DNA of 64,000 nt from Olsenella massiliensis. GTDB lineage: Bacteria; Actinomycetota; Coriobacteriia; Coriobacteriales; Atopobiaceae. The notes below the pieces were generated by a model. It was not told where the DNA came from. It saw only the letters and a list, made by a program, of their open reading frames with translations, and did not search any database. The DNA lies in assembly GCF_001457795.1 (NCBI RefSeq), contig NZ_LN898209.1, forward strand, positions 62,001 to 126,000, given 5' to 3'. Below, piece by piece: positions 43,015 through 54,226 of this stretch. The translations under genes were made by a program, and so were the position numbers. Position 1 is the stretch's first letter, and each line of letters begins with the position of its first letter.

Positions 43015-43197
43015 CCAGACGCACGCTTTTGATGAGAACAAGAGCCGCATGGCGCGGGAGGGGGACCGGCCGCGCCGACCCCTCCTCTCGCGACATTTCT
43101 GTCGGGGCGCTGTGCCATAGTTTTCCCAACCAGCGCGGCGCAGTCAGGACCCGCCGCCATCGGCGTCGTGCCACACGACGGAGGCAGGGAGGATCGC

Positions 43198-46100
43198 ATG
43201 GACATCTCGCCCCAGGCGCGCTCTCTATGGGGTAAGTCGGACTATGGCGCGGGGGAGGCGTGGCTGCCTCTCGCGATGCACATGCTTGACTCCCTTGGCG
43301 TCGCGCGTCTGCTGTGGGACGCGTGGCTCCCCCAAGGAACGAGGGAGACGCTCTCGCGGCCGCTCGGGGGAGACCAGCACGTGGCAAGGAGCCTCCTCAT
43401 GCTGCTTGCCGGCCTGCATGACTTGGGCAAGGCCACGCCCGTCTTTCAGTCGACGCCCTCGCGGACGGCGTCATCATGGGACGAGACGTTGCCAGACAGA
43501 GTCATCCGCGCGGGGCTCTGCCTTCGCGCCGACTTCGCCGAGAGGCGGCTGCCCACCCACGCCGTCGCCGGCGAGGCCCTCGTGCGGGAGCTCCTATGCG
43601 CGCGTGGATGGGGCGGGCGTGCCGCCAAGGCCCTGGCGAGCGTGATCGGCTCTCATCATGGGACGTTTCCCCAGCAGAAGGCGGCACAGGACGCCAGGCT
43701 GCTGTACGCGGCCGAGATGGGCGCCATCGGTCGCGGCAGCGAGGAGTGGGCGCGAGTCAGAAAGGAGCTCTCTGAACTTGTCATATGTCGGGCCAGCGTC
43801 TCGTCGGACCTTGTTTGCACCCTGAGCGAGAACGTCCTGCCCGCTCCCGTCCTGAGCCTGCTTGCCGGGATCGTCACCATGGCGGACTGGCTTGCGAGCA
43901 ATCAGGAGCTCTTCCCTCTCTTTCCTTTGGGTGAGGATCGATGGGACAAACGGGTTTCTGACGCTTTCCTGGAGGCGCGCCTTGCGCAGGGTTGGGAGTG
44001 CGCGGACCTACCAACTCCGTGGCACACGAGCCGGACGGCCGTGCCCCTGGACGAGACCTCGTTCAGGGAGCGTTTTGGCCTTCCTGCCGGCTGCGTGCTC
44101 AGGCCCATCCAGGCCGCCATGGTCAAGATCGCGCGGGAGCACGATGACCTTGGCATCGTCGTGCTGGAGGCGCCCATGGGAGAGGGCAAGACCGAGGCCG
44201 CCCTGGCCGCTGCGGAAATCATGTGCGCCCATGGCGGTATGGGGGGCATCTGCGTGGCCCTGCCCACGATGGCGACGACCGATGCGATGTTCGGCAGGGT
44301 GCGTCACTGGCTTGACAGGCTGCCGCATGTGGACGGCGAACACGACAAGAGCGTCACGCTCGCACACGGCAAGTCTCAGCTCAACGAGGAGTTCCAATCC
44401 ATCAAGGCGGCCTCGCGCCGACGACAGGGCTCGGCGCGAGGAGGAGGCGGCATCGAAGGCGACGTGTTTGCCTCCGACTGGATGTCCGGCAGGAAGAAGG
44501 GCATGCTCGCCAACTTCGTCGTCTGCACGGTGGACCAGGCGCTCATGGGCGCCCTCGACATGAGGCACCTTTCGTTGAGGCAGGTGGCGCTGGCCAACAA
44601 GGTGGTCATCATCGACGAATGCCATGCGTACGACTTGTACATGCGCCAGTATCTGGGCAGGCTGCTCGAGTGGCTGGGCTACTGGCATAACCCCGTTATC
44701 CTGCTCTCCGCGACGCTTCCCTCGCAGCTCAAGAAGGAGATGGTCGATGCCTACCTGGCGGGGAGAAAGGCCTCGGGAGCTCAGTTCGCGACGCGAGCTC
44801 GTCGTCATCGGCCTGTATCCCGATGGGCGCAGACGTCCCCTGCCGCCACGCCCCCTGCCGAACTGACCGCGGCAGCGACGTCTTCTGCCGCGCCGACCGC
44901 GGCCGCGACGCCGGCGTCCGTCTCGCCCAGCCTGGAAGGCACGGCACGCGGCGACGCCTACCCACTCATCACCTACACCTGCGGCATCGAGAGACGTGAG
45001 CTTCCATGCGCGACGTCAGGGCGCGGCGTCAGCCTCAGCCTGGCGCTCATGGCAGACGATGAGTCCGAGCTGGTCCGCCTGCTTGAGGAGAGGCTTGTTG
45101 AGGGCGGCGTCGCGGGCGTCGTCTGCGACACGGTCGCGCGGGCGCAGCGTGTCTTCCAGGTCGTGCGCGAGGCCTTTGGTGAGGCAGACGTGCTGCTTGA
45201 CCACGCCCGGTTTATTGACCTTGATCGTTTGCTCATAGAGCGGAGCATCCGCAGCCTCCTTGGCCCCGCCGCCACCCGCGCAAACGGGCGGCGCCCAAAA
45301 CGGCTTGTCGTGGTAGGCACGCAGGTGCTCGAACAGTCCCTTGACATAGACTTTGACTTGCTCGTGACCGACGTAGCCCCCGTCGACCTGATATTTCAGC
45401 GTTTGGGGCGCACCCATCGTCATGTGCGGGGTGACGGCGAGAAAGACCGCCCTGACCGCCTGCGCACGGCACGTTGCTATGTGAGGGGCATCACGTCCTG
45501 GGAGGGGGGCGTGCCCGCCTTCATGGATGACGTCACCAAGGTGTACGGGGAAGCCACCCTGATGGAGGCGCTCTCGGTGCTGGATCTGACCGATGCCGGC
45601 GGGCGTAGGGACCTTGCGCTGCCTCAGGATATTGCCCCCCTCGTGAGGGCCGCCTACTCAAAGGGGGTAAGCGGTCGCGTTCCCGAGGGCTGGCAGGAAG
45701 GATATCAGCGCGCCTGCGCGCAAAGAGAGAAAAAGCGGCGCGAGAAGATGGCGCGAGCTCGCGTCTGCCTCCTGCATTCTGCCGTCTCCTCCGTCACCAA
45801 CGAGTGGAACCTGGACGACCTTGCCTCAAGCCACTGCCTGGGCGACGCCGCCGACCTTGACGCGGGCGAGCGTGCCGTGCGCGACACGCAGGAGACGGTA
45901 GAGGTGCTGCTGCTCAGACAAGGTGCGGACGGCGTGAGCCTGCTCCCGTGGGTTGGTGACGATAGGCGGGGCATTCTCCCCGGCGCCTCGGTGCCCGTGC
46001 ATGCCTGCCCCGAACCGGCGCTCGCCCGCCTCGTTGCCCAAGGCTGCGTTCGTCTTCCCCTGAGCCTGTGCAACCCCCAGAAGATAGACCTTCTCATCAG

Positions 46101-46275
46101 GGAGCTTGAGGACAAGAGTGGGGAGATCGTGTCGTGCTGGCAGGATTCTCCCTGGCTGGCGGGGCGCATCGCACTTCTCATGAGGGAGGAGAAAAATGGG
46201 TTGCTCGTGACCACGATTTTGGGTCAGCGGCTTGAGTACTCCGCTCAGGTGGGTTTGCAGACCGTTTGCGGGTGA
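43198..46275 (+). CDS. cas3: CRISPR-associated nuclease-helicase Cas3 (type I-E)
   Basis: The effector nuclease that degrades DNA marked by Cascade. The 1025-residue protein has an N-terminal HD nuclease domain with LAGLHDLGKATPVF (His74-Asp75) and IGSHHGTFP, and a superfamily 2 helicase with Walker A APMGEGKTEAAL near residue 324, Walker B VVIIDECHAYDLYM (DECH box) near 470, SATLPSQLKKEM as motif III, and QRLGRTHRH as motif VI. A low-complexity Ala/Thr/Pro-rich insert lies near residues 545-580. GGGAGG precedes ATG 43198. A 145-bp leader with its own promoter separates it from casA. Confidence 0.97.
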   Translation: MDISPQARSLWGKSDYGAGEAWLPLAMHMLDSLGVARLLWDAWLPQGTRETLSRPLGGDQHVARSLLMLLAGLHDLGKATPVFQSTPSRTASSWDETLPDRVIRAGLCLRADFAERRLPTHAVAGEALVRELLCARGWGGRAAKALASVIGSHHGTFPQQKAAQDARLLYAAEMGAIGRGSEEWARVRKELSELVICRASVSSDLVCTLSENVLPAPVLSLLAGIVTMADWLASNQELFPLFPLGEDRWDKRVSDAFLEARLAQGWECADLPTPWHTSRTAVPLDETSFRERFGLPAGCVLRPIQAAMVKIAREHDDLGIVVLEAPMGEGKTEAALAAAEIMCAHGGMGGICVALPTMATTDAMFGRVRHWLDRLPHVDGEHDKSVTLAHGKSQLNEEFQSIKAASRRRQGSARGGGGIEGDVFASDWMSGRKKGMLANFVVCTVDQALMGALDMRHLSLRQVALANKVVIIDECHAYDLYMRQYLGRLLEWLGYWHNPVILLSATLPSQLKKEMVDAYLAGRKASGAQFATRARRHRPVSRWAQTSPAATPPAELTAAATSSAAPTAAATPASVSPSLEGTARGDAYPLITYTCGIERRELPCATSGRGVSLSLALMADDESELVRLLEERLVEGGVAGVVCDTVARAQRVFQVVREAFGEADVLLDHARFIDLDRLLIERSIRSLLGPAATRANGRRPKRLVVVGTQVLEQSLDIDFDLLVTDVAPVDLIFQRLGRTHRHVRGDGEKDRPDRLRTARCYVRGITSWEGGVPAFMDDVTKVYGEATLMEALSVLDLTDAGGRRDLALPQDIAPLVRAAYSKGVSGRVPEGWQEGYQRACAQREKKRREKMARARVCLLHSAVSSVTNEWNLDDLASSHCLGDAADLDAGERAVRDTQETVEVLLLRQGADGVSLLPWVGDDRRGILPGASVPVHACPEPALARLVAQGCVRLPLSLCNPQKIDLLIRELEDKSGEIVSCWQDSPWLAGRIALLMREEKNGLLVTTILGQRLEYSAQVGLQTVCG

Positions 46276-46304
46276 GAGATGACTGGCAGTTCTGCCGTGA
46301 TAAA

Positions 46305-46333
46305 TTGACTATGATGTTCAACATTCTCATTAT
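46305..46333 (+). promoter_or_regulatory. Putative casA promoter
   Basis: TTGACT (46305-46310) and CATTAT (46328-46333) are separated by 17 bp in an AT-rich stretch after cas3. Transcription would start near 46340, giving a leader of about 80 nt that includes the repeat-like hairpin at 46366-46393. Confidence 0.45.
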
Positions 46334-46365
46334 GAGTTGATCCAGTTGAGCATCAGAGTGAGGTA

Positions 46366-46393
46366 GTGTTCCCCGCCTCTGCGGGGCAGTTCC
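46366..46393 (+). repeat. CRISPR-repeat-like hairpin in the casA leader
   Basis: GTGTTCCCCGC, loop CTCT, then GCGGGGCAGTTCC matches the array repeat (GTGCTCCCCGC, loop ACAT, GCGGGGATGATCC) at 21 of 28 positions. The whole 6-bp stem CCCCGC/GCGGGG and the outer GTG and TCC ends are kept; differences are in the loop, the 3' handle and position 4. It lies 28 bp before the casA start and downstream of a likely promoter, so it would be present in the Cascade mRNA leader. Upstream, TTGATCC (46337-46343) echoes the 3' end of the repeat, 22 bp before this copy. Confidence 0.8.
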
Positions 46394-46420
46394 ATCGGCA
46401 TCCATCAGATGGGAGCGTCT

Positions 46421-48091
46421 ATGGCCGGACCTGAGCAACCTCTGTCGTTCAATCTGCTTGAGGAGGGATGGATTCCCGTCGTCTATCGTGACGGCAGCCA
46501 AGGTGAGCTGACGCTCGGGGACGTCTTTGCCCAGGCGCCGCGCATCCGAACCATAGAGGGGGATGTGCGCCAGCAGACCTTCGTTCTCTTGCGCCTTCTG
46601 CTTGCCGTCCTGTACCGCTCTCACCTTGACTTTACCGGCACCGAGGCCGACTTGCGCCTGTTTTGGAAGGAATCCTGGGAGGACGGCGCGTTTGACCTCA
46701 ATACGATCGACGCGTATCTGGACAGGTTTCACGACAGGTTTGACCTCTTTGACCCTGAGCATCCCTTCTTCCAGACGCCCGGCCTGCGCTATGTGAGCAA
46801 GGAGTACGATTCTGTCGGGGAGATGGTCGCGGACGTTCCCAAGCCCGAAAAGTTCCTCTTTTCGATGAGGGACCAGCACCACCTTGACTCGCTCGGCTTT
46901 GCCGAGGCAGCCCGCTGGCTCGTCTTCATGCAGGCCTTTGACCCGGCGGGCATCAAGTCTCCCGTCGTGGGAAACACGCACCAGAAGGCGGGAAGGGTCT
47001 ACGCCCCCCAGGGCGCCCTGGGAACGGGCGTCGCGGGTGCTCTGGGCGGCATCTTCGTCGAGGGTGACAATCTCTTTCAGACGCTCATGCTCAACTGGGT
47101 GCTCTACGACTCGGTCCGCAGCAAGGAGCACCCGCTGCTGGGCGTCGAGCGCGACCTGCCATCCTGGGAGCAGGACGACCGCAGCTGCGACATGGTGATC
47201 CAGGCGGCGGACGAGCCCTACGGCCCGGTGGGCATGTACGTCGCGCAGAGCAGGAGAGTGCGCCTGGTTCCCGATGCGTCCGCCCAGGTCGTCAGGGGCG
47301 TCATCTCCTGCTACGGCACCGTCGGCAGCGTTCTTGACAAGCAGCATGTCGAGCCGATGACCGCCTGGCGGGAGAGCCCCGCCCAGCAAAAGAAGCTCGG
47401 CCTGTCCCACGTGCCGCTCATGCCGCTGGCCCATGACCCCGCCCAATCGCTCTGGCGCGGACTGGGGTCCGTCATCGCCGCACGCGGCGCAACAGGCGAG
47501 CAGGACCTGCGCCCGGGCGTCATTCGCTGGATCGGCGCCCTTGAGGACGCTGACGTCTTTGAGGGCGCTTCGCCGCTCGTGACCCTCCATGCCCAGGGTA
47601 TGGTGTACGGGACTCAGAGCAGCGTGTTTTCCGAGGCAATCGATGACTCGTTTGCCATCCCCGCCATGGTCCTCAGAGACGCGTCGCGAACGCGCGCCCT
47701 TGCGGTGCAGGTCGTGGAGCAGGCAGCCAATGCCGCAGACGCCCTGGGTCGCTTCATGAACAACATTCGTAGGGCTGCGGGTGACAGGGGCGACGCCGCC
47801 CAGTACAGGGCCAAAACGACCAAGGTCAAGGAAGAGGCCTTCCGCGAGATGGACGGCCTCTGCAGGGAGCGCCTGCGCAATCTGGACAAGGCGGAGCAAG
47901 ACGAAGGCTACTTTGACGCCTGGCGCAACGAGATTCGTCGAATCATATGGGCCATCGGTCATCGATCGCTTAGCACCATGAGCGTCTCCTACTTTGAGGT
48001 GCATGACAAGATGTCCGTCGGGCGCGCCCTGCAGCTCTTTGAGCAATCGTTGGACAAGGCGCTTCCCGGCACGTCAAAGAGGCGCCAGTAG
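46421..48091 (+). CDS. casA: Cascade large subunit CasA (Cse1/Cas8e)
   Basis: The Cascade subunit that recognises the PAM and recruits Cas3. The 556-residue protein starts SFNLLEEGWIPVVYRDGS, as Cse1 proteins do, and has the family's DLNTIDAYLDRFHDRFDLFDPEHPFFQ region, seen here as residues about 95-120, and KAGRVYAPQGALG. The start is ATG 46421, with GGGAG just before; ATG 46409 is in frame but lacks a ribosome-binding site. A CRISPR-like hairpin lies in its leader. casB follows after 53 bp. Confidence 0.95.
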   Translation: MAGPEQPLSFNLLEEGWIPVVYRDGSQGELTLGDVFAQAPRIRTIEGDVRQQTFVLLRLLLAVLYRSHLDFTGTEADLRLFWKESWEDGAFDLNTIDAYLDRFHDRFDLFDPEHPFFQTPGLRYVSKEYDSVGEMVADVPKPEKFLFSMRDQHHLDSLGFAEAARWLVFMQAFDPAGIKSPVVGNTHQKAGRVYAPQGALGTGVAGALGGIFVEGDNLFQTLMLNWVLYDSVRSKEHPLLGVERDLPSWEQDDRSCDMVIQAADEPYGPVGMYVAQSRRVRLVPDASAQVVRGVISCYGTVGSVLDKQHVEPMTAWRESPAQQKKLGLSHVPLMPLAHDPAQSLWRGLGSVIAARGATGEQDLRPGVIRWIGALEDADVFEGASPLVTLHAQGMVYGTQSSVFSEAIDDSFAIPAMVLRDASRTRALAVQVVEQAANAADALGRFMNNIRRAAGDRGDAAQYRAKTTKVKEEAFREMDGLCRERLRNLDKAEQDEGYFDAWRNEIRRIIWAIGHRSLSTMSVSYFEVHDKMSVGRALQLFEQSLDKALPGTSKRRQ

Positions 48092-48144: not shown

Positions 48145-48774
48145 GTGAATTCAGGCAGGTCAAGCACAAGCTCGTTGGTCAGGGCATATGTCAGCCGCAA
48201 GGTGGCGGAGCTTCAGGGTTCGTTCCTAGCGAGGTCAAGCTCGGCTCGCGCACAGTTGGCGAGGCTCCGCAGGCTCGACGCCCCGGGAGCCGGCTCGTGG
48301 ATGAGCGTGGGAGAGACCGTCTTTGCGGACATGCCCCTCGATGGGCTGCAGGATGCCGACGCTGAGCGGTTCATGCGCTCTGCCAAGCTGGCGCTCAAGC
48401 TCTATGCGCTGCATCAGCAGTCCAAGAAAAAGCCCATGGCAGTGCTTTTTGACAAGGACGCCCCATGGCGGGGAACTCTGGGGTCCGCCTGCTTCCAGGC
48501 GGGCCATCATCATGGCGACAACACGGGTGCCGCAGGCATCGAGAGGCGCATGTCATCGCTCGAGGCGGCGACTGAATGGGGCGCGGTCGAGGTCTGCCTG
48601 CGAGCACTGGTGCAACTGTTGCGCGCGCAAGACGTTCCGCTTGACTACGGCAGGCTCGCGCACGATCTCTATCTTCTGCAGATTCCGGAGGCCAAAGACG
48701 GCGTGCACATGAGCTGGGCGCGGGATTACTTTGCGTATCGGCCCACGCCAGAAGACGTCGACAAGGAGCAGTGA
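48145..48774 (+). CDS. casB: Cascade small subunit CasB (Cse2)
   Basis: Cse2 dimerises along the Cascade backbone and contacts target DNA. The 209-residue protein is mostly helical and has the typical RMSSLEAATEWGAVEVCLRAL region and DYGRLAHDLYLLQ, with conserved basic residues. The GTG start at 48145 follows GAGGAG. The first ~45 residues (Ser-rich, then LQGSFLARSSSARAQLARLRR at about 22-42) are somewhat longer than the compact E. coli protein. cas7 begins 49 bp downstream. Confidence 0.9.
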   Translation: MNSGRSSTSSLVRAYVSRKVAELQGSFLARSSSARAQLARLRRLDAPGAGSWMSVGETVFADMPLDGLQDADAERFMRSAKLALKLYALHQQSKKKPMAVLFDKDAPWRGTLGSACFQAGHHHGDNTGAAGIERRMSSLEAATEWGAVEVCLRALVQLLRAQDVPLDYGRLAHDLYLLQIPEAKDGVHMSWARDYFAYRPTPEDVDKEQ

Positions 48775-48823
48775 CGCAGGCCGCCTGCAATGCGGTTTTC
48801 ATGTCCAAACGAGGAGGAACATC

Positions 48824-49960
48824 ATGTTCGTTGACATCCATGTAATCCAGAACGTGCCGCCCAGCAACATCAACCGAGACGACACAGGTACGCCCAAGAC
48901 CGCCGTGTTTGGCGGCGCGCTCCGTGCTCGCGTGTCAAGTCAGGCCTGGAAGCACGCCATGAGAAAAAGCTTCATGCAGTACGTCCCAGCAGATGAGCTG
49001 GGGTGTCGCACGGCCCATGCTTGCGAACTCATCGCCGAGCGCATCGTCGCGCTCGATTCCGGCCTCGCCGAGGTCGCCGATGCGTGGGCGCAGGCCGTGC
49101 TGAGCGCGGCAGGGGTGAAGACTGAGCAATCTAAGCGCAAGGGCAAGGAGATGGGCACGCAGGTCACTCAATATCTCATCTTCATCGCAGAACGAGAGTT
49201 GGACAAGCTGGCAGCCCTTGCCGTCCGTCACGCTCGTGCGGGTGAGGACGCGTCCAAGCCTCCGAAGGAGCTCAAGAAGGAGGTGTCCAAGGCGTTTCAC
49301 GGCAGGCAGGCGCTCGACATAGCCCTCTTTGGCAGGATGCTTGCCGACGCCCCCGACCTCAGCACTGACGCATCGGCCCAGGTGGCCCATGCTATCTCCG
49401 TCGACAAGATCACCCAGGAGTATGACTACTTCACGGCGCTCGACGACTGTTCCGCCAATGACAACGCCGGCGCGTCCATGATCGAGTCCGTGGGCTTCAA
49501 CTCCTCGACGCTGTATCGCTATGCGACGGTAAACGTTGACTCCCTCCGTGAGCAGCTGGGCGATGACCAGGCGACCGTCGTGGGCGTCGAGGCATTTGTC
49601 AAGGCGTTCGTGCGCTCCATGCCCACGGGCAAGCAGAACACCTTTGCCAACAGGACCGTCCCCAGCACCGTCATCGTGGCGCTTCGGTCCGACCAGCCCA
49701 TCAATGCCTCTGCGGCGTTCGAGAAGCCCGTGCGCGCGCAGGAGGGCGCCTCAATTTCCGAACGCGCCGAGGAGCGTCTGGTCGAGCGCCTGATCAACAC
49801 CGAGCGAATGTATGGTTCCAAGGCAAGGCGGACATGGATTTCCTCCATTGACGGGCAGAGTCCGAAATTGGACGAGCTGGGGGTCGTTGAGGAGCTCCCT
49901 CAGATCTTCGAAGACGTCAAGGCAGCCATCCTGGCGGAGTTGAAGGGTGACGAGCAGTAA
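48824..49960 (+). CDS. cas7: Cascade backbone subunit Cas7e (CasC/Cse4)
   Basis: Six copies of Cas7 coat the crRNA spacer. The 378-residue protein begins FVDIHVIQNVPPSNINRDDT, with the typical PKTAVFGGALRARVSSQAWK, FGRMLADAP, and the thumb region DKITQEYDYFTALDD. The C-terminal YGSKARRTWISSIDGQSPK is normal. ATG 48824 follows GAGGAGG; the longer frame from 48731 overlaps the casB end and is not supported. Its stop overlaps the cas5 start by 1 bp. Confidence 0.96.
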   Translation: MFVDIHVIQNVPPSNINRDDTGTPKTAVFGGALRARVSSQAWKHAMRKSFMQYVPADELGCRTAHACELIAERIVALDSGLAEVADAWAQAVLSAAGVKTEQSKRKGKEMGTQVTQYLIFIAERELDKLAALAVRHARAGEDASKPPKELKKEVSKAFHGRQALDIALFGRMLADAPDLSTDASAQVAHAISVDKITQEYDYFTALDDCSANDNAGASMIESVGFNSSTLYRYATVNVDSLREQLGDDQATVVGVEAFVKAFVRSMPTGKQNTFANRTVPSTVIVALRSDQPINASAAFEKPVRAQEGASISERAEERLVERLINTERMYGSKARRTWISSIDGQSPKLDELGVVEELPQIFEDVKAAILAELKGDEQ

Positions 49961-50706
49961 TGGGCGTCTTGATGCTCAGGCTGGCGGGACCCCTTCAGTC
50001 GTGGGGGGACTCCTCGCGCTTCACGCGCAGGACCACACGACAAGAGCCCACCAAGAGCGGTGTCGTGGGGCTTGTGGCCTCGGCGTTGGGAAGGAGTCGG
50101 GAGGAGTCCGTCGAGGACCTGGCCCTTCTCGACTTTGGCGTGAGGATTGACCAGCCGGGGCGCCTGCTCCCTGACTTTCAGACGGAGCATCCTCTGGGCG
50201 ACACGAAAAAGTCCATGCCTCTCACCACCAGGTACTATCTTGCTGACGCCAAGTTCCTGGCCGCGCTCGGGGGAGACGACGAGCTGCTACGGGACATTGC
50301 GCGTGCTCTCAGGGCCCCCCGGTGGCCGCTCTTTCTGGGACGAAGGTCATGCCCGCCAGGCGAGCCGATCCTCATGGAGGCTCAGGAGTCCTACCAGGAC
50401 GTGAGGGACGCGCTGTCCCGGCATCCCTGGATCGCCTCGGAGCATGAACGACGACGTGTCGGCCAGACGGAGCTGCCCGTGCTGTGCGACGCCCGGGAGG
50501 GCGAGCCGTGCACGAGCCAGGCGGACTTTCCGCTGAGCTTCTCGGGGTCGGGGCGTACGTACGCACAGAGGGCGGTCTTCCACTTTGTCGTTGATGTCGC
50601 ATCCCTGCGCGCCGCGCAGGAAGGCGCGCAGGCTGACACGACGCCGGCGCGTGGGCATGGCAGGCCGCCACAGCTGGGGGATCACGACCCCATGAGTTTT
50701 GTATAG
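49960..50706 (+). CDS. cas5: Cascade subunit Cas5e (CasD)
   Basis: Cas5 binds the 5' handle of the crRNA. The 248-residue protein starts MGVLMLRLAGPLQSWGDSSR, a clear Cas5 signature, followed by RTTRQEPTKSGVVGLVASALG and the FQTEHPLGD loop. In Cascade it contacts the 8-nt handle and CasA. The ATG is coupled to the cas7 stop. The C-terminal ~30 residues (Ala/Thr-rich) are poorly conserved. Confidence 0.95.
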   Translation: MGVLMLRLAGPLQSWGDSSRFTRRTTRQEPTKSGVVGLVASALGRSREESVEDLALLDFGVRIDQPGRLLPDFQTEHPLGDTKKSMPLTTRYYLADAKFLAALGGDDELLRDIARALRAPRWPLFLGRRSCPPGEPILMEAQESYQDVRDALSRHPWIASEHERRRVGQTELPVLCDAREGEPCTSQADFPLSFSGSGRTYAQRAVFHFVVDVASLRAAQEGAQADTTPARGHGRPPQLGDHDPMSFV

Positions 50707-50718
50707 GAGGGTGTCAAC

Positions 50719-51411
50719 GTGTACATATCCAGGGTGCCGCTTAACGTGGCACGGCCCAATACGCTCAGGCTCGTGGCCTCATCGTACTTTGTGCATGCCG
50801 CAGTGGAGCACTGCTTTCCTCCCACGGCCCGACGCCTTGACGAAAAGGGGAGGGTGCTATGGAGGATTGACGCCAACCCCAAGGACAAGGACTCGCTCTG
50901 GCTGTATGTGGTAAGCCCCGAAAGGCCCGACTTCACTCATGTCGCCGACCAGTATGGGTGGCCCGCTGCGGCGCCGGGCGAGACGAAGGACTACTCCCCG
51001 CTTCTGGGCAAGATCGCGCAGGGGCAGAGCTGGCAGTTCAGGCTCAAGGCCAATCCCACGCGCCTCGTACGGACTGACAAGGGCAAGCGTCCCAACGAGA
51101 AGGTCGTGGGCACCATTCAAGGGCATGCGACCGAGGCGCAGCAGGTTGACTGGCTGCGGCGACAGGGCAACGTCCATGGCTTTGAGCTTGCGGTGTGGGA
51201 AGATGCGATGCCTTATGTGACTGTGACCCAGAGGCGTAAGGAGCGCTTCTCGCGTCAAGGCTCCACCGTGACGATATCGACCGCCGTGTTCGACGGCGTC
51301 CTCACCGTCACCGACGCGTCGGCGTTTGCCAGGGCGCTCTGTCAGGGGGTGGGCAGGTCAAAGAGCTTTGGGTGCGGCCTGCTTACCATCGCCCCCTGGA
51401 ACAGGAGATGA
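50719..51411 (+). CDS. cas6e: CRISPR RNA endonuclease Cas6e (CasE)
   Basis: Cas6e cuts the pre-crRNA at the base of each repeat hairpin and stays bound. The 230-residue protein starts MYISRVPLNVARPNTLRL and ends with the Gly-rich loop GVGRSKSFGCGLLTI; the His in SYFVHAAVEHCF is a candidate catalytic residue, as in other Cas6e proteins. It begins with GTG 50719 after AGGAGG. Its substrate here is the CCCCGC-GCGGGG stem; the same stem is present in the casA leader. Confidence 0.95.
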   Translation: MYISRVPLNVARPNTLRLVASSYFVHAAVEHCFPPTARRLDEKGRVLWRIDANPKDKDSLWLYVVSPERPDFTHVADQYGWPAAAPGETKDYSPLLGKIAQGQSWQFRLKANPTRLVRTDKGKRPNEKVVGTIQGHATEAQQVDWLRRQGNVHGFELAVWEDAMPYVTVTQRRKERFSRQGSTVTISTAVFDGVLTVTDASAFARALCQGVGRSKSFGCGLLTIAPWNRR

Positions 51412-51447
51412 TTGGCTCCAAGGGCGTCAATCGAGAGGTGGGATGAC

Positions 51448-52416
51448 ATGAGCCTGGGCAAGGGGGGAGCCAGGGGGACGCCCCCTCCCGACATCGTCGC
51501 GCTGGCACGAGCGGAGGACAGGCTTTCCTTCCTGTATGTTGAGCGCTGCAAGATTGGCAGGGACGAGAATGCCATCACGGTCTTTGACGCCGAGGGAGCG
51601 ACGTATGTTCCCTCAGCCACCCTGTCGGTGCTCATGTTGGGTCCCGGCAGCTCCATCACGCATGACGCGATGACGGTCATCGGGGAGAGCGGGTCCACGG
51701 TCGTGTGGGTTGGCGAGCGCGGTATACGCCTGTATGCCTTTGGGAAGCCGCTCACCCACTCGTCAGCCCTGTTGCAGCGTCAGGCTGCCTTGGTCTCCAA
51801 CCGCCGTGCGCGGCTTGGTGTGGCACGGCGGATGTATCAGCTGCGATTTCCTGACGAGGACGTCAGTGGGCTGACGATGCAGCAGCTCAGGGGAAGGGAG
51901 GGGGCGCGGGTTAGGAAGGTCTACCGAAACATGTCCACAGAGACGGGCGTTGAATGGAATCGCCGCGAGTACAATCCCAATGACTTTGATGACGCCTCGG
52001 AAATCAACAAGGCGCTGTCTGCGGCCCATGTCTGCCTGTATGCGCTGGCCCATTCCGTCATCGTGTCGCTCGGCTGCTCGCCAGGGCTTGGCTTTGTGCA
52101 TGTGGGCCATGAGCGCTCGTTCGTCTATGACGTTGCGGACCTGTATAAGACCGAGCTCTCCATCCCTGTCGCGTTTAGGATTGCCGCGCTCAAGCCCGCA
52201 AACATTGGGTCTGCGGTGCGGCGGGGCATGAGAGACGCCGTGTATGACCTGTCGATTCTCTCCCGCATGGTCAGGGACGTCAGGTCGCTGCTCATGGGGG
52301 ACGCCGCGGAGGGGGCCGTCGGGGAGAATGGGGAGGACGTCATTGCCCTTTGGGATGAGTGCGCGGGCGAGGTCCCTTCTGGACGGTCGTATGGCCGAGA
52401 TTTGGAGGAGGGTTGA
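51448..52416 (+). CDS. cas1: CRISPR integrase Cas1e
   Basis: Cas1 with Cas2 inserts new spacers next to the leader. The 322-residue protein has the N-terminal beta domain (VPSATLSVLMLGPGSSITHDAM, residues about 53-75) and a helical catalytic domain with the metal ligands Glu in STETGVEWNRREYN, His in GFVHVGHERSF and Asp in VYDVADLYK. ATG 51448 is preferred over the longer TTG-started frame from 51412; AGGTGGGATG lies before it. Cas2 follows without a gap. Confidence 0.96.
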   Translation: MSLGKGGARGTPPPDIVALARAEDRLSFLYVERCKIGRDENAITVFDAEGATYVPSATLSVLMLGPGSSITHDAMTVIGESGSTVVWVGERGIRLYAFGKPLTHSSALLQRQAALVSNRRARLGVARRMYQLRFPDEDVSGLTMQQLRGREGARVRKVYRNMSTETGVEWNRREYNPNDFDDASEINKALSAAHVCLYALAHSVIVSLGCSPGLGFVHVGHERSFVYDVADLYKTELSIPVAFRIAALKPANIGSAVRRGMRDAVYDLSILSRMVRDVRSLLMGDAAEGAVGENGEDVIALWDECAGEVPSGRSYGRDLEEG

Positions 52417-52830
52417 ATGGTTGTCATAGTGCTGACCGCCTGCCCCGCAGGCCTGCGAGGTGACTTGACGAGATGGCTGCTTGAGATTTCTCCCGGCGTG
52501 TACGTGGGGCACCTCTCTGCCCGCGTTCGCGAGGAGCTTTGGAGTCGTGTGACCTCCCTGGTGAGGGAGGGAAGGGCGATGATGGTTCATTCGGCACGGA
52601 ACGAGCAGCATCTGGCGTTTAGGGTCTTACGACCAGACTGGGAGCCTGTGGACTGTGAGGGTGTGACCCTGGTGTCGCGAAGGCCGGACGATGCGTACCA
52701 TGGGTTTCAGGGCAAGATGAAACCCGGCTGGAGCCATGCGAGCCAATATAGAAATGCTCACAGGTTTCGTGCTCAAGGAAAGAAGAACTATTTTTTGCCA
52801 GACGAGTCAGCGGATGAGAAAGTGAACTGA
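52417..52830 (+). CDS. cas2: CRISPR-associated Cas2e
   Basis: Cas2 bridges two Cas1 dimers in the integrase. The 137-residue protein has the Cas2e start MVVIVLTACPAGLRGDLTRW and GVYVGHLSARVREELW, as in type I-E systems. It carries a longer C-terminal tail than the ~95-residue E. coli protein, including KPGWSHASQYRNAHRFRAQ region near residue 105, which is rich in Lys/Arg/His. The ATG directly follows the cas1 stop. Only 39 bp separate its stop from the first CRISPR repeat. Confidence 0.95.
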   Translation: MVVIVLTACPAGLRGDLTRWLLEISPGVYVGHLSARVREELWSRVTSLVREGRAMMVHSARNEQHLAFRVLRPDWEPVDCEGVTLVSRRPDDAYHGFQGKMKPGWSHASQYRNAHRFRAQGKKNYFLPDESADEKVN

Positions 52831-52869: not shown

Positions 52870-53991
52870 GTGCTCCCCGCACATGCGGGGATGATCCCTC
52901 GGAACTCGTGCTTCTCGTGAAGCCAGAACTTGTGCTCCCCGCACATGCGGGGATGATCCCAAGGTTGACGTGCTTGACTGGCGGTTCGGGTTCGTGCTCC
53001 CCGCACATGCGGGGATGATCCCAACAGGGCGGTAGCGAACCTGACGAACGGGTCTTGTGCTCCCCGCACATGCGGGGATGATCCCGGACTTCTACCGCCT
53101 GAGGCAGGCGGTGTCGAAGTGCTCCCCGCACATGCGGGGATGATCCTCACCGTCGAGGACGTCATGAAAGACGTGGAAGAGTGCTCCCCGCACATGCGGG
53201 GATGATCCCTTCACGCCGAAGGCCTTGGTTCCGCCGTCCATGGTGCTCCCCGCACATGCGGGGATGATCCCCCGTTGGCCGTCTTCAAGCAGACGCGACT
53301 CGCAGTGCTCCCCGCACATGCGGGGATGATCCGGCCAAGACGGTCATCATAAGCGGCTCCGACATTGTGCTCCCCGCACATGCGGGGATGATCCTGCCTC
53401 GAAGGCGCATGAGGCGACCCCGCAAGAGGTGCTCCCCGCACATGCGGGGATGATCCCCCTCAGGAATGATGCGGTCCATGCAGTCGCCCTGTGCTCCCCG
53501 CGCATGCGGGGATGATCCTCCGGGTATCCGGTTTTCAAGGTGCGCAAGGCTTGTGCTCCCCGCGCATGCGGGGATGATCCCGAAAGCTGCCCGAAGGCGA
53601 TTGTCGAGGACTTCGTGCTCCCCGCGCATGCGGGGATGATCCCCTCGTGCCGGCGTCCCTGGCGCTCCGCCTGCTGGTGCTCCCCGCGCATGCGGGGATG
53701 ATCCTGAGGGCGAAGCAAAAGCAGACCGAGAAGGCCTCGTGCTCCCCGCGCATGCGGGGATGATCCGCAACGTGAGGCGCTTCATATAGCAATTGAGGCC
53801 AATCCCTCCCAAATAGGTGGGTGGGAGTTGGCCTCGCCACCAATATACCCATCAGCGACACGTCGTGTCAACGTGCTCCCCGCGCATGCGGGGATGATCC
53901 GGTCGTGGCCAAAGAGCAGGTGACCGCATCCAAGTGCCCTATGATTTCCTTCCGGGCGCTCTCGGTCATGTCAGCCGCGCTGTGCTCCCCG
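52870..53991 (+). CRISPR. Type I-E CRISPR array, 16 full repeats plus one truncated
   Basis: The 28-bp repeat is GTGCTCCCCGC, loop ACAT or GCAT, GCGGGGATGATCC. Repeats start at 52870, 52932, 52994, 53057, 53119, 53181, 53243, 53305, 53367, 53429, 53491, 53553, 53615, 53677, 53739 and 53873. Spacers are 34 bp, except one of 35 bp (53022-53056) and one gap of 106 bp before the last full repeat. Repeats 1-10 have loop ACAT; 11-16 have GCAT. A final truncated repeat, GTGCTCCCCG, starts at 53982. Cas genes and the uniform repeats are both on the left side, so new spacers enter there. Open frames on the reverse strand are repeat artefacts. Confidence 0.98.
53795..53835. other. Long hairpin inside the CRISPR array
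   Basis: GAGGCCAA (53795-53802) pairs with TTGGCCTC (53828-53835), with inner pairing CTCCCA / TGGGAG around a loop containing AATAGGTGG. It sits in the 106-bp stretch between repeats 15 and 16, where one normal spacer-repeat-spacer would measure 96 bp. Confidence 0.7.
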
Positions 53992-54226
53992 TGTTAAGCG
54001 GCCCACCTGTCTGGGTTTCGCCAGATGATGTACGTAGGGGGCGCTTTGACGTTGGCGCCCTGCGCGCCTTTGCCGGGAAGTGGGGCGCCCCATTCATCTT
54101 CGCCTCAGCAACTCAGAATGATGTCCGTGGCCAACTGGCAAGTTAGGCGTCGTCAATGCGTATGACTTCGTCAACCAGCGCGGCGACTTCTTCAATCACA
54201 TGGTGACATCGGCCATCAGAACCATT
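53992..54226 (+). pseudogene. Possible decayed coding remnant right of the array
   Basis: After the truncated repeat, one frame reads GRFDVGALRAFAGKWGAPFI and stops near 54146, and another frame shortly after reads VVNAYDFVNQRGDFFNHMV. Both look like real protein sequence, suggesting one gene broken by a frameshift, without a start. No family is recognised. It could also be chance; the stretch has no other feature. Confidence 0.3.

Follow-up and report, generated by a model that had tools for sequence, protein, structure and literature searches.

What does a sequence resembling the CRISPR repeat do in the leader of casA, outside the array? This question is raised by a complete type I-E system, which was found by Pfam and repeat searches on the plus strand of the window (the whole 64-kb stretch of Olsenella massiliensis DNA analysed here; Table 1). 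The array repeat of the window is GTGCTCCCCGCACATGCGGGGATGATCC. The 133-nt gap between cas3 and casA (46276-46408) is filled by a predicted promoter and a pseudo-repeat element. From our sequence analysis, the 28-nt sequence in this gap, named PsiR2 (second pseudo-repeat), very likely forms the 3' repeat of a mini-CRISPR in the casA leader that specifies a cas-regulating RNA (CreR). A CreR, as introduced by Liu et al. (2023, Cell Host Microbe 31:1481) and outlined in PMC12737573, PMC12948488 and PMC13131331, is a crRNA-like RNA of an ectopic mini-CRISPR at a cas operon. According to the same three accounts, CreRs have been reported for types I-B, I-E and V-A.

Table 1. Features of the type I-E locus and of the candidate CreR, in window coordinates
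Feature	Position	Strand	Remark
cas3	43168..46275	+	Pfam Cas3_HD and Cas3 C-terminal families; co-directional with the pseudo-repeat element and 5' of it
Putative CreR target (pseudo-protospacer) GTTGAACATCATAGTCAATTT	46302..46322	-	Includes the -35 box and reaches into the -35/-10 spacer
Putative -35 box of casA promoter, TTGACT	46305..46310	+	Consensus scan
Degenerate first pseudo-repeat (PsiR1) GTTCAACATTCTCATTATGAGTTGATCCA	46316..46344	+	Register of a 29-nt repeat
Target PAM, AAT	46323..46325	-	2 bases from the predicted -10 box
Putative -10 box of casA promoter, CATTAT	46328..46333	+	Consensus scan
Predicted CreR 5' handle TTGATCCA	46337..46344	+	6/7 fixed bases as in array repeat ATGATCC
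Pseudo-spacer (guide) GTTGAGCATCAGAGTGAGGTA	46345..46365	+	21 nt, between handle and PsiR2
Second pseudo-repeat (PsiR2) GTGTTCCCCGCCTCTGCGGGGCAGTTCC	46366..46393	+	21/28 identical to array repeat
casA (cse1) ORF	46409..48091	+	Pfam PF09481, E 3.6e-98
cse2, cas7, cas5, cas6e, cas1, cas2	48145..52830	+	Pfam matches, in listed order
CRISPR array, 28-nt repeat	52870..53900	+	

A repeat-like hairpin between promoter and casA

Of the 17 copies of the stem CCCCGC-N4-GCGGGG in the 64-kb window, 16 belong to the array and one to PsiR2 (46371-46386); shuffled sequence gives 0.05 occurrences. Outside the array, no site of the window other than PsiR2 exceeds 19/28 identity to the array repeat. The sequence-only reading had described a 28-nt element with the complete stem and 21 repeat-identical positions, lying between a plausible promoter and the casA start, and we arrive at the same sequence and the same placement. 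The predicted -35/-10 pair scores 9/12 with a spacing of 17 in the consensus scan. This promoter is quoted for the window only, as the same scan in relatives is weak and mostly does not exceed shuffles. The start of casA is probably the ATG at 46421, behind GGGAG. The casA leader as a whole does not fold better than its shuffles (z 0.37).

A strong GC stem inside an intergenic gap could also be an ordinary terminator or attenuator hairpin behind cas3. However, our search of the window found no terminator between cas3 and casA and no T run there. The sequence is moreover repeat-like, and a repeat-like sequence beside a promoter-matching guide (see below) would be unexpected for such a hairpin. 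These observations mainly refute a terminator, which we regard as extremely improbable.

The array shows its own irregularities at the 3' end. Its last two repeats (53739 and 53873) are separated by 106 nt (53767-53872) instead of a 34-nt spacer. This stretch holds a GC-rich inverted repeat CCCTCCCAAATAGGTGGGTGGGAG and is perhaps an insertion or the trace of a lost repeat. A degenerate terminal repeat GTGCTCCCCGTGTTAAGCGGCCC lies at 53982-54005, 3' of the last good array repeat.

A handle and a short guide upstream of PsiR2

The sequence-only reading had noted a single good repeat in the leader. This is literally true but misleading, as a spacer and the handle of a degenerate first pseudo-repeat, PsiR1, stand directly upstream. 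The handle follows the array form, ATGATCC and then a variable 29th base, and in the relatives, too, a handle of this form lies 5' of the guide. A guide register starting right behind the 28-nt repeat was rejected: it produced a consistent single mismatch at position 1, which the 29-nt register with its 8-nt handle removes. What is left of PsiR1 in the window is this handle and a weak 4-bp hairpin (-0.8 kcal/mol, no better than shuffles), which is stronger in many relatives. The predicted -10 box overlaps PsiR1, and the predicted transcription start (about 46339-46341) falls inside the handle.

The guide measures 21 nt, as against about 33-34 nt for the array spacers, and with one good and one degenerate repeat the unit differs from a canonical CRISPR array. 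As in a CreR, a repeat-like element with a Cas6 processing stem is found outside the array at a cas locus, represented here by PsiR2 and the PsiR1 handle.

The guide matches the casA promoter

The guide matches its minus-strand target at 15/21 positions (1-5, 7-11, 13-15, 17 and 20), with mismatches at 6, 12, 16, 18, 19 and 21. None of 3000 shuffled guides equalled its seed match beside an AA PAM, and seed plus PAM match a single site in the 1.8-Mb genome, namely the casA promoter. A plus-strand match at the -10 region (TGA-GTTGATC), noticed by eye, was discarded in favour of the much better minus-strand target. Partial complementarity of the guide to a cas promoter beside a PAM, as described for CreRs, is found in the window, where the promoter is a consensus prediction, and across the 24 loci introduced below. 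The complementarity is confined to the seed and some further bases; in the 24 loci, 11-18 of 20-21 positions match.

CreTA has the same anatomy, with pseudo-repeats and a promoter matched by the seed, so the element might be a CreTA-type antitoxin RNA repressing a toxin. The likeness to CreA of CreTA extends to the two pseudo-repeats with the first more degenerate, the 8-nt handle and the seed rule of positions 1-5 and 7-11, with 6 and 12 free (PMC8501985, PMC9458426). CreA, however, represses a toxin RNA (PMC8501985, PMC9458426), whereas the element in the window targets the casA promoter, with no toxin gene recognised. The sole genomic target of seed plus PAM speaks against an antitoxin, and a separate toxin gene could not be made out in the 133-nt gap, where a very small RNA toxin could escape sequence reading. 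With no sign of control over a toxin gene, we consider an antitoxin function highly improbable.

Conservation in related type I-E loci

We collected loci by casA searches in the family, the class and the phylum and from named genomes; their CasA proteins are 31-50% identical to that of the window. Handle, guide, stem and promoter target were found together in 23 further actinobacterial type I-E loci (24 with the window). The Coriobacteria-type loci that have a gap between cas3 and casA carry handle, guide and stem, and so does Bifidobacterium avesanii (L019). In all of these, the guide matches the minus strand and the match adjoins AAC or AAT. The guides of the relatives are 20-21 nt long, except for 33 nt in L020 and 31 nt in L059. 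These two near full-length guides show promoter complementarity chiefly in their first 11-19 positions.

The arrangement varies in a few loci. In L019, the CreR lies upstream of its target and not in the leader, some 60-180 nt before the casA match, and its complementarity is the longest of all (18/21). Three distant actinobacterial type I-E loci (L048, L050 and L051) have a CreR-like unit between cas3 and casA but antisense to casA. Their targets lie on the minus strand, just upstream of or overlapping the casA start region, with an AAA or AAT PAM and a mismatch at position 6. On the other hand, no CreR was found near casA in the loci in which casA directly follows cas3 (L032-L036 and L064-L069), and a search for repeat-like elements near cas3 or casA in L032-L036 gave nothing convincing. 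Regulation in these CreR-less loci must differ or lie elsewhere. The one other exception is L062, in which the upstream region is present and the element absent. L041 was rejected as a CreR locus, its matches being only self-complementary.

The pairing of the PsiR2 stem is maintained in the relatives through a G-C/A-T exchange at pair 5 (in 8 and 12 loci) and C-G/T-A exchanges at pairs 4 and 6. Compensating exchanges are thus found at three stem positions, which makes it likely that Cas6e processes the transcript. Conservation of the stem upstream of casA had been proposed by the sequence-only reading as one point on which the element would stand or fall; the stem is conserved and the element stands.

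The pairing signature of Cascade

In type I Cascade, each sixth guide base is flipped out and left unpaired. Over the 24 loci, guide positions 1-18 match the promoter in 24, 24, 20, 24, 24, 5, 24, 24, 19, 22, 20, 6, 21, 16, 17, 10, 14 and 5 loci, respectively. Positions 1, 2, 4, 5, 7 and 8 are thus matched in all 24, and positions 6, 12 and 18 at the chance level of one quarter. The difference between positions 6, 12 and 18 and the other positions up to 17 gave a Fisher p of ~1.7e-24, and that to the immediate neighbours 1.3e-16, values that treat the loci as independent and are optimistic for related loci. In 20 of the loci, targets were picked by the total over positions 1-12, a criterion that gives no advantage to a dip at 6 or 12. 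The remaining four (L038, L048, L050 and L051) were added later by requiring a match at 1-5 and 7-11 and add less. The 20 loci alone give 20, 20, 16, 20, 20, 5, 20 and 20 at positions 1-8. When their guides and promoters were re-paired at random, none of 100,000 trials reached the observed sum of 195 (maximum 157). The guides of the sister loci L024 and L025 differ at positions 4 and 8, where the promoter has changed alike, and at position 6, where only the guide has changed. What is read directly from the loci comprises handle, guide, stem, PAM and target, together with their conservation and the pairing signature of Cascade. For CreA, guide positions 1-5 plus 7-11 were the tested minimum for function, and it was shown functionally that 6 and 12 need not pair (PMC8501985).

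The PAM is AAN in 24/24 loci (AAC 17, AAT 5, AAA 2), with C or T as last base in 22/24. A search for phage protospacers as proof of the PAM yielded no usable matches, and the PAM is therefore supported through the 29th array base. In type I-E, the base after the 28-nt repeat is usually PAM-derived, as in E. coli. In the arrays, this base is C 373, T 63, G 8 and A 8 times (n=452). C or T in 436/452 agrees with the C or T in 22/24 PAMs, as expected.

These patterns bear on two other readings. The element could be a relic, a functionless repeat that remains of an array once present between cas3 and casA. A single, degenerate repeat fits this reading, and repeats at array ends do decay. A relic, however, would not keep stem, handle, seed and PAM at 31-50% CasA identity while the flipped-out positions drift. 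Stem compensation and the 24-locus pattern refute a relic, provided that the loci are not biased by the search, and this reading appears very improbable.

The second is the one that the sequence-only reading favoured from its single good repeat, over a CreA or mini-crRNA regulator: Cas6e would bind or cut the stem in the cas mRNA leader and tune expression by the amount of free Cas6e, with no guide function. The stem is indeed conserved with compensating changes and located in the leader in most loci, and a Cas6e cut is expected anyway, as the step freeing the CreR. Leader cleavage, however, predicts no match between guide and promoter, and such a match with the Cascade signature is found in 24/24 loci. 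Since the element is on the other strand in L048, L050 and L051 and upstream of its target in L019, the loci cannot have cleavage of the cas mRNA leader as their common function. Our literature search for Cas6 cutting cas mRNA leaders found no direct precedent. Handle, guide and target, in the window and in 23 further loci, thus contradict the earlier preference. Action of Cas6e on the stem survives as likely processing, but not as the principle of regulation: leader cleavage is probably a processing step. Taken as a complete explanation, it is unlikely.

A proposed model of CreR autorepression of Cascade

Returning to the CreR, we infer its transcription, processing, Cascade loading and repression, as well as their physiological sense, from the conserved features. 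Most likely, the CreR guides the host's own Cascade to the casA promoter and lowers Cascade production. The leader RNA would consist of the 8-nt handle, the 21-nt guide and the hairpin. Cas6e is predicted to cut directly 3' of the stem, after 46386, which would free a crRNA-like RNA that Cascade could take as a guide. Cascade would then pair with the casA promoter, on the minus strand beside the AAT PAM, through seed positions 1-5 and 7-11 and a few further bases. Such pairing would suffice for binding and for blocking RNA polymerase and be too short for Cas3 cleavage. The outcome would be a negative feedback on Cascade production, which would ease when array crRNAs or anti-CRISPR proteins occupy Cascade. 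This scheme is in line with the review accounts of CreRs in types I-B, I-E and V-A (PMC13131331, PMC12737573, PMC12948488).

Some observations count against the CreR reading, namely the weak PsiR1 of the window, the predicted transcription start inside the handle and the 21-nt length of the guide. The 5' end of the CreR may be set by this start. Alternatively, the transcript might come from read-through of cas3, given that the search for a terminator between cas3 and casA was negative. Such read-through could bypass the repressed casA promoter, a further point against the CreR reading. We tentatively suggest, as a possibility rather than an expectation, that PsiR1 has been absorbed into the promoter, with the 5' end made by the transcription start and not by Cas6, and that the cas mRNA leader itself is the CreR precursor. 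In that case, each processing event would shorten the cas mRNA and at once yield its repressor, and the CreR would be a one-repeat form with the 3' repeat only. The one-repeat CreA of Haloarcula hispanica, in which only the first repeat is kept (PMC8501985), would be its mirror image.

Relation to known systems

CreR as a kind is already known for type I-E. The element of the window would add a member whose comparative evidence is unusually strong and whose 5' end may be reduced. It resembles the CreRs, as these are outlined in the accounts cited above, in being a mini-CRISPR at a cas operon with partial complementarity to a cas promoter, but its PsiR1 is nearly lost and merged with the promoter, and its guide is just 21 nt long. 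A first pseudo-repeat more degenerate than the second is also the rule in CreA (PMC9458426). The candidate CreR shares with a canonical type I-E crRNA unit the order of repeat stem, handle and guide. It differs in targeting a self promoter through about 11-18 pairs, instead of a fully paired invader, and in being a single unit with degenerate repeats. With the long-form tracrRNA, Cas9 represses its own promoter by means of a natural guide of limited complementarity. The two cases are alike in that a Cas effector silences its own promoter, although that system is of type II and uses Cas9 and tracrRNA, not Cascade.

The CreR reading replaces the guess of leader cleavage by a specific and testable circuit, in which Cascade would measure itself at its own promoter. 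The 24 loci display natural selection on the target pairing of Cascade: the seed is conserved, guide and promoter have changed in concert, and the flipped-out bases drift. For gut actinobacteria, this circuit predicts that type I-E expression would go up with long arrays or with anti-CRISPRs.
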